From NCBI GenBank assembly GCA_029264775.1, contig JARHYT010000087.1, positions 1 to 49,472 of the forward strand: DNA of 49,472 nt. Reading direction: 5' to 3'. The DNA is from Helicobacter sp. GTDB lineage: Bacteria > Campylobacterota > Campylobacteria > Campylobacterales > Helicobacteraceae. Below are positions 1,479 through 6,568 of this stretch, one piece after another. The position numbers and the translations under genes were made by a program. How positions within the stretch are numbered: position 1 is the first letter of the stretch; each line of letters opens with the position of its first letter. The notes under the pieces are model-generated. The model did not search any database. It was not told the origin of the DNA and saw only the letters and a program-made list of their open reading frames with translations.

Positions 1479-4926
<3,448 letters not shown>

Positions 4927-4950
4927 TCTTACTCCTTCTGTGTATTAAAA

Positions 4951-5082
4951 AGATAGTAGTTATAGTAGTGTTATTGAATTCTGTGAATTAATATTTAAAA
5001 ACATTTTTAAAGCCCTTTTATATGGAGTTTATTTATTTATTTTGAATATGAAAATATTCATAGTAAATTCACTTATATTCAC
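4951..5082. other. Putative oriC2: DnaA-trio-like TAG repeats and DnaA-box-like sites
   Basis: Between dnaN and dnaA lies a TAG-repeat tract at 4953-4968 (ATAGTAGTTATAGTAG). It is followed by the degenerate TTGAATT and then GTGAATTA (4983-4990). Two ATTCAC motifs in the opposite orientation occur at 5067-5072 and 5077-5082, 10 bp apart, and a partial ATTCA occurs at 5056-5060. ATTCAC matches the core remembered for H. pylori DnaA boxes (TCATTCAC). TAG trios beside a DnaA box in the same orientation resemble the DnaA-trio unwinding element of B. subtilis. The flanks are very AT-rich. Origin function is inferred. Confidence 0.7.
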
Positions 5083-5127
5083 ATATTTAATCCGAAATTA
5101 TAGCAAAATAATTTTTATTTAACTATT

Positions 5128-6447
5128 TTATTTAATTCTTTGTTTTAGTTTTGAGATCATATTTTTTACTTCGTTTTTCAATGTTTGGTTTTTTTCAAAT
5201 TCTTGCGATAATGATTTTATTTGTTTGCTAACTGCACTATGATCTTTTAAATTTAATTCAGATGCTATGTGAGGTAAAGTCATGTTTGTTTCTTCTCTTG
5301 TTATGTAAGCTACTATTTTTCTTGCTTTTGCTATTGTTTTTTTCCCTCTAGTTTTTGTCTTTATCTCGCTTGGTTTAATATTATATTCTAATGCTACTAA
5401 TTTTACTATTTCATCAAATGATATTATACTTGTCTCTTCTTCTCTATCTTTTAAAGCGTTTTTTATTGTTTCTATTGTTATTGGAGTATTAAAGATTGAC
5501 ATATGTCCATGTAGATTCACAATCATTCCTTCTATTTCTCTTATATTATCTTGTAGGCTAGTTGCTAGAAGACTTATAGATTCCATATCAAGTTTAATTC
5601 CATTTATATCGCATTTTTGTTTTATTATATCTATTTTTGTATTTAATTCTGGAGATTCTATTTTTGACATCATACCTCCGTTAAACCTTGATTTTAATCT
5701 CTTTTCTAATTTTTCAATTAGATTTGGGGCTTTGTCGCTTGACATTATAATTTGTCCTTTGTTTTTTATAATATCATTAAAGGTATTAAAGAATTCTTCT
5801 TGAAATAAATCTGTCTTTGCTAGGAATTGAATATCATCAATAACTAAGTAATCACATTTTCTAAACCTTTCTCTAAATTCTTCCATATTTTTTTTTGTTA
5901 CTTTATACCTATATTCATTAAACATAGTTTCTGCTGTTATGAATATTATAATTGCATTTGGCTTTTCTTTATAAACTTTATTGCATATCGCACTTAATAG
6001 GTGAGTTTTTCCTAGTCCTGTGTTCCCGTATATTAATAGAGGATTCCATTTTGCTTTTTGTTGTGCTACTTCTCTAGCTGCTTCATATGCGAATTTATTA
6101 CATTCTCCTGTTATAAAATTTTCAAATGAATATTCTGAATTAATTAGAGTTCTATTATTTGCAATCATATATTTATTTTTTTGTTTTATATTCTCATTAA
6201 TAAAATGCTTTGTCTTTGTAGTTATTTCTATGTTTGGTATCTCATTATTATTCTTTTTTATTATTTTCAGTATTTTTTCTATGTAATTTCTTTTTATCCA
6301 ATTTACTATAAATATATTATCTGCTACATAAACTAATTTATTTCTGGTTGAATTATTACTATCAAATTCTATTTTACTTATATATTTTTGATATTCTTTT
6401 TCATCTACTATTTTTTTTAGTTCTTTAAGAATTTCATTTCCTTCCAT
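5128..6447 (-). CDS. dnaA: Chromosomal replication initiator protein DnaA
   Basis: AAA+ initiator that binds DnaA boxes and melts oriC. The 439-residue protein has an N-terminal domain I (about 1-85), a short linker, and the ATPase domain with Walker A GNTGLGKT at 141-148. Walker B is VIDDIQFL, and sensor II lies in the NIREIEG segment. C-terminal domain IV ends with the helix-turn-helix signature region LNLKDHSAVSKQIKSL; the usual DHTTV is DHSAV here. Length is typical for Campylobacterota. It is flanked on both sides by clusters of GTGAAT sites, in agreement with autoregulation and a bipartite origin. The gene diverges from fabD. Confidence 0.98.
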   Translation of the reverse strand: MEGNEILKELKKIVDEKEYQKYISKIEFDSNNSTRNKLVYVADNIFIVNWIKRNYIEKILKIIKKNNNEIPNIEITTKTKHFINENIKQKNKYMIANNRTLINSEYSFENFITGECNKFAYEAAREVAQQKAKWNPLLIYGNTGLGKTHLLSAICNKVYKEKPNAIIIFITAETMFNEYRYKVTKKNMEEFRERFRKCDYLVIDDIQFLAKTDLFQEEFFNTFNDIIKNKGQIIMSSDKAPNLIEKLEKRLKSRFNGGMMSKIESPELNTKIDIIKQKCDINGIKLDMESISLLATSLQDNIREIEGMIVNLHGHMSIFNTPITIETIKNALKDREEETSIISFDEIVKLVALEYNIKPSEIKTKTRGKKTIAKARKIVAYITREETNMTLPHIASELNLKDHSAVSKQIKSLSQEFEKNQTLKNEVKNMISKLKQRIK

Positions 6448-6462
6448 GTTTAACCTTATATC

Positions 6463-6568
6463 ATTTCACAATTTTATGCAATTATATCCATTTTTTAGTG
6501 AATTAAATCCATTATTAGGTGAATATATAGTGAAAATTATGTGAATTAGAGTTTTTTCGTGTGAATTA
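6463..6568. other. Putative oriC1: helically phased DnaA-box-like array upstream of dnaA
   Basis: Five GTGAA(T/A)-type sites start at 6498 (GTGAATTA), 6519 (GTGAATAT), 6530 (GTGAAAAT), 6541 (GTGAATTA) and 6561 (GTGAATTA). An inverted ATTTCAC lies at 6463-6469. Start-to-start distances are 21, 11, 11 and 20 bp, i.e. close to whole helical turns, so the sites face one side of the DNA. Together with 4951-5082 this gives repeats on both sides of dnaA, like the bipartite oriC known from H. pylori. The region also holds the divergent dnaA and fabD control sequences. Confidence 0.72.

Follow-up and report, generated by a model that had tools for sequence, protein, structure and literature searches.

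A composite of DnaA boxes and DnaA-trios in the dnaA-dnaN spacer of Helicobacter sp. (GenBank assembly GCA_029264775.1, contig JARHYT010000087.1) is very probably oriC2, the module at which the chromosomal origin is unwound. The window, i.e., the whole stretch of 49,472 nucleotides that was analysed, encodes the initiator gene dnaA (5128–6447, minus strand; Pfam DnaA_N, Bac_DnaA and Bac_DnaA_C) and the sliding clamp gene dnaN (3814–4926, minus strand; Pfam DNA_pol3_beta, all three domains present). Pfam assignment gives the gene order dnaA, dnaN, gyrB, and a gene with an acyl-transferase domain (PF00698) is divergent from dnaA. The composite is located at the dnaN end of the 201-bp spacer (4927–5127). 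Its plus strand carries ATAGTAGTTATAGTAG at 4953–4968, TTGAATT at 4974–4980 and GTGAATTA at 4983–4990, exactly where the first-pass annotation had placed them. Read on the minus strand (4954–4990) it is TAATTCACA-GAATTCAAT-AACA-CTA-CTA-TAA-CTA-CTA, followed by TCT. The strong box TAATTCACA (4982–4990, minus strand) is of the R1 type, faces the trios on the side of the putative DUE and has the TTCAC core found in epsilonproteobacterial boxes. The weak tandem box GAATTCAAT (4973–4981, minus strand) shows four mismatches to TTATTCACA and follows in a 9-bp tandem register, which is found in most relatives, where the weak-box copy is often TTCAC. The 4-nt spacer AACA (4969–4972, minus strand) occupies the place of the GC-rich spacer. 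It is followed on the same strand by trios 1 and 2 (CTA CTA, 4963–4968; 3'-GAT-GAT-5' on the plus strand), a broken trio 3 (TAA, 4960–4962) and trios 4 and 5 (CTA CTA, 4954–4959).

Judged by its sequence the element is of a known kind, and what is new here is the split-trio variant, an interrupted repeat that is missed by published search rules. By the definition of the Bacillus subtilis basal unwinding system (BUS; DnaA-box 6/7 and DnaA-trios), TAATTCACA has no more than two mismatches to the lineage consensus and is no more than 16 bp away from the trios; its distance to trio 1 is 13 nt, the commonest published spacing between strong box and trio 1. GAATTCAAT provides the second tandem box of the commonest arrangement (four mismatches or fewer), which is clearer in relatives. 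Repeated 3'-GAT-5' trios share the register of the box and are on the expected strand, four of five being intact. The first-pass annotation had drawn a parallel to B. subtilis, and it holds for the 13-nt gap, the tandem boxes, the strand and polarity of the trios and the position in the dnaA-dnaN spacer. The differences are a TTCAC instead of a TCCAC core, the lack of a GC-rich spacer and the interrupted trios.

Epsilonproteobacterial origins have box clusters flanking dnaA, with a TTCAC core, an R1-type box toward the DUE and distal boxes pointing outward, and are opened between dnaA and dnaN. The window shows this layout in every feature readable from sequence. Boxes with the TTCAC core are found in the dnaA-dnaN spacer (oriC2), the R1-type box is turned toward the composite as the predicted DUE, and the distal boxes AAATTCACT (5065–5073) and ATATTCACA (5075–5083), 10 bp apart on the plus strand, point outward in the orientation opposite to the strong box. 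A second cluster upstream of dnaA (oriC1; 6498–6568, minus strand) consists of five same-direction TTCAC boxes within 71 bp, partly in 11-bp steps. The oriC2 of H. pylori (ts1/ts2 boxes, GC-rich spacer, DnaA-trios and A+T-rich DUE), in which TCATTCCAT is the ts1 box and CTG the third trio, shares the tandem boxes, the trio polarity, the number of five trios, the TTCAC core and a second box cluster across dnaA. The differences are in the order of the boxes (here the strong one is distal and the weak one adjoins the trios), in the A+T-rich spacer and broken trio 3 of the window, and in the position of dnaN, which comes after dnaA here but not in H. pylori. The C. jejuni oriC likewise has no GC-rich spacer, and it has a degenerate DnaA-trio and a DUE between dnaA and dnaN; it was reported to be monopartite with boxes inside the 3' end of dnaA, whereas here dnaA is preceded by an oriC1 array. 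A. butzleri, W. succinogenes and S. denitrificans share the oriC1-dnaA-oriC2-dnaN layout, the TTCAC core, the outward distal boxes and the trios, but the usual neighbour of dnaA in these species is ruvC instead of a divergent PF00698 gene.

The full composite is rare. CTACTANNNCTACTA has a single occurrence in the window, and none of 100 dinucleotide shuffles contains it. TTCAC-N14-CTACTANNNCTA (a box, a 14-nt gap from TTCAC, CTACTA and a further in-register CTA) is found at a single place in the 1.68-Mb genome (reversed control, zero). A looser box-gap-CTACTA pattern was found in 17 of 100 shuffles, so the weight rests on the full composite and its conservation. TTCAC-N12-16-CTACTA was rejected as a genome-wide marker, with several matches per genome and more from the reversed control. 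A chance origin of the element is rejected on the basis of the shuffles, its uniqueness in the genome and its conservation.

For the conservation analysis we compared the DNA upstream of dnaN from 14 genomes of the genus and 77 further genomes from the family and order, and the DNA downstream of dnaA from six genomes (five H. pylori-like genomes with dnaN elsewhere, and G121, in which the contig with dnaN ends too soon). Eight genomes of genus g6 that have no element upstream of dnaN were excluded at that place. By a fixed score for tandem TTCAC and trios, 84 of 97 regions, among them those of all 14 genus genomes, came out above every one of 200 dinucleotide shuffles of their own sequence. 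The element is at the same place in all 14, i.e., the close relatives in which conservation of the tract had been proposed as a check, and in most of the approximately 30 genera of the order; a DnaA box is present at the strong-box position in 14/14 genus members. Named control records from Bacillaceae, Sulfurovum, Nautiliaceae, Arcobacteraceae and Sulfurospirillum show matching geometry and strand. The alignment was anchored solely on the boxes and trios 1 and 2, and frequencies were weighted by genus. The middle T is found in 97% (trio 1) and 99% (trio 2) of the weighted relatives, both of these trios having served as anchors. At trios 3, 4 and 5 its frequency is 0.80, 0.73 and 0.81, and at trio 6 it is 0.22; the trio periodicity stops sharply past trio 5. 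The genus falls in the family of H. pylori-like genomes, and genomes of this family carry TTTTCATTCCATCCATTCACGCCCCTACTACTGTTACTA (TCATTCCAT-box-CTACTACTGTTACTA) downstream of dnaA, with the ts1 box and the CTG third trio known from H. pylori.

The box-trio element does not always keep the same neighbour. In L018, L019 and L021 (G026, G033 and G022) and in G137, dnaA has moved to a place about 7 to 40 kb from dnaN, and dnaN is the gene that has kept the element. In H. pylori-like genomes dnaA has kept it. Most genomes of genus g4 have trio-proximal boxes with TTCAA(C), not TTCAC (e.g., L183–L186, L207, L208 and L210), hinting at a shifted DnaA-box specificity or at weakened boxes.

By analogy with published relatives, DnaA would occupy the strong box at 4982–4990 and, weakly, the tandem box at 4973–4981. 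The distal boxes (5065–5083) may assist, and the oriC1 array on the other side of dnaA is probably brought in by looping. The DnaA filament would be passed to the plus strand and read the trios in the 3'-to-5' direction (TAG TAG ... TAG TAG), and the duplex would open from 4968 toward the dnaN start. The proposed unwinding element (4927–4968, 42 bp) runs from trio 1 up to the start codon of dnaN and includes the dnaN ribosome-binding site; in relatives the distance to the dnaN start is mostly 38–50 nt. The match to the B. subtilis-type system and to the H. pylori/epsilonproteobacterial oriC2 argues for unwinding beside the dnaN start, as the first-pass annotation had suggested. In H. pylori in vitro, DnaA-dependent opening takes place at the first trio and is abolished by disruption or reversal of the trios.

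It is quite unlikely that the origin is here but opens in the A+T-rich DNA at 5020–5069 or in oriC1, with the TAG tract being secondary. The spacer is A+T-rich, yet the trio side is not its least stable part; 5020–5069 is, and by stability 5030–5069 ranks in the lowest 1% of the window's 40-bp stretches. The oriC1 array also has more boxes. However, in all four epsilonproteobacteria tested, as in C. jejuni, the opened DNA belongs to oriC2 and is on the side of the R1-type box that faces the DUE, and H. pylori can do without the A+T-rich part but not without the trios. Duplex stability was considered as a pointer to the opening site and dropped; it does not discriminate.

A role of the conserved stretch as a dnaN leader or promoter element, controlling transcription or translation with no part in an origin, is very unlikely. 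The trio tract is indeed 28–42 bp upstream of the dnaN start codon (27 bp between trio 5 and the start) with the ribosome-binding site adjacent. But RNA folding is no better than that of shuffles (z −0.74), there is no terminator-like site, promoter-like sites are not in excess, and H. pylori-like genomes carry the element behind dnaA, away from dnaN. It is highly improbable that the tract is a decaying relic of an origin now active elsewhere, which would explain the broken trio 3: in one subclade of the family, dnaA and dnaN seem to have lost the element, but here trios 1, 2 and 5 and the boxes are conserved across the genus with variation confined to trios 3 and 4, and the GC skew switches sign at the locus (at about 6–7 kb in the window, which has further sign changes elsewhere).

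Across the genus, the oriC1 array (6498–6568 in the window; L232–L242) is built of TTCAC boxes that all point the same way and follow an 11-bp lattice. At least two boxes are present in each of 11 genus members examined. With G003 left out, 17 of 27 spacings are multiples of 11, a figure whose significance is overstated since the genomes are not independent. G003 has nine consecutive boxes at exactly 11 bp. A subclade of the Helicobacter-like genus g6 (G061, G067, G068, G071, G072, G089, G090 and G073; L254–L261) is without a box-trio element at dnaA and dnaN; seven of these genomes were checked, and none has a forward TTCAC box in the roughly 800 bp upstream of dnaA. Most genomes of the subclade have one box-trio element elsewhere, which suggests a relocated origin as a candidate. 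In several of eight loci read, this element is near acpS-like and fliL-like genes (gene names assigned by eye). The GC skew in G068 and G071 is weak and noisy.

The tract preferred here as the unwinding module reads TAG-TAG-TTA-TAG-TAG. Four of its five triplets are perfect trios, all in one register, and the tract is split 2+1+2. It had been described as a run of TAG/TTA triplets; the run is present at 4953–4968, but TTA (3'-ATT-5' read from the box) is not a valid trio because the invariant middle A is lost. With two consecutive trios at most, the tract is not matched by the published BUS rule of at least three consecutive trios, nor are those of eight of the 14 genus members. The middle base of trio 3 (T in 4/14) shows at least four changes within the genus on a DnaA+DnaN tree and that of trio 4 (T in 6/14) at least three, these counts being minima on an uncertain tree with open forks. 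Trio 5, which was not used for anchoring, has the middle T in 13/14 and a single change on the same tree. Several of the 14 genomes are near-identical and the trio figures are thus not independent. Some other origins (L174 and L171, i.e., G127 and G128; L039) carry CTACTA-TTTA-CTACTA, a one-base register slip between trio pairs.

A filament that keeps its register across an unread triplet is plausible, given that a degenerate DnaA-trio has already been published for C. jejuni and that in B. subtilis a one-base register shift slows unwinding while deletion of a whole trio does not. Since the third and often the fourth trio lack the invariant middle base, contacts at trios 1, 2 and 5 seem to suffice. 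We tentatively propose, at somewhat less than even confidence, that the filament reads no unbroken trio array in this genus: subunits 3 and 4 would sit on sequence that need not fit, trios 1, 2 and 5 would be under selection, and register rather than base contact by each subunit would carry unwinding. If this is true, the rule of three consecutive trios undercounts functional origins. The likely opening site of the chromosome is now located in an uncharacterised genus of the Helicobacter family, and the broken trio explains concretely how some genomes escape the published rules for finding origins. Origins in which the third trio is broken also form a natural series, on which it can be tested directly which trios the filament must contact.
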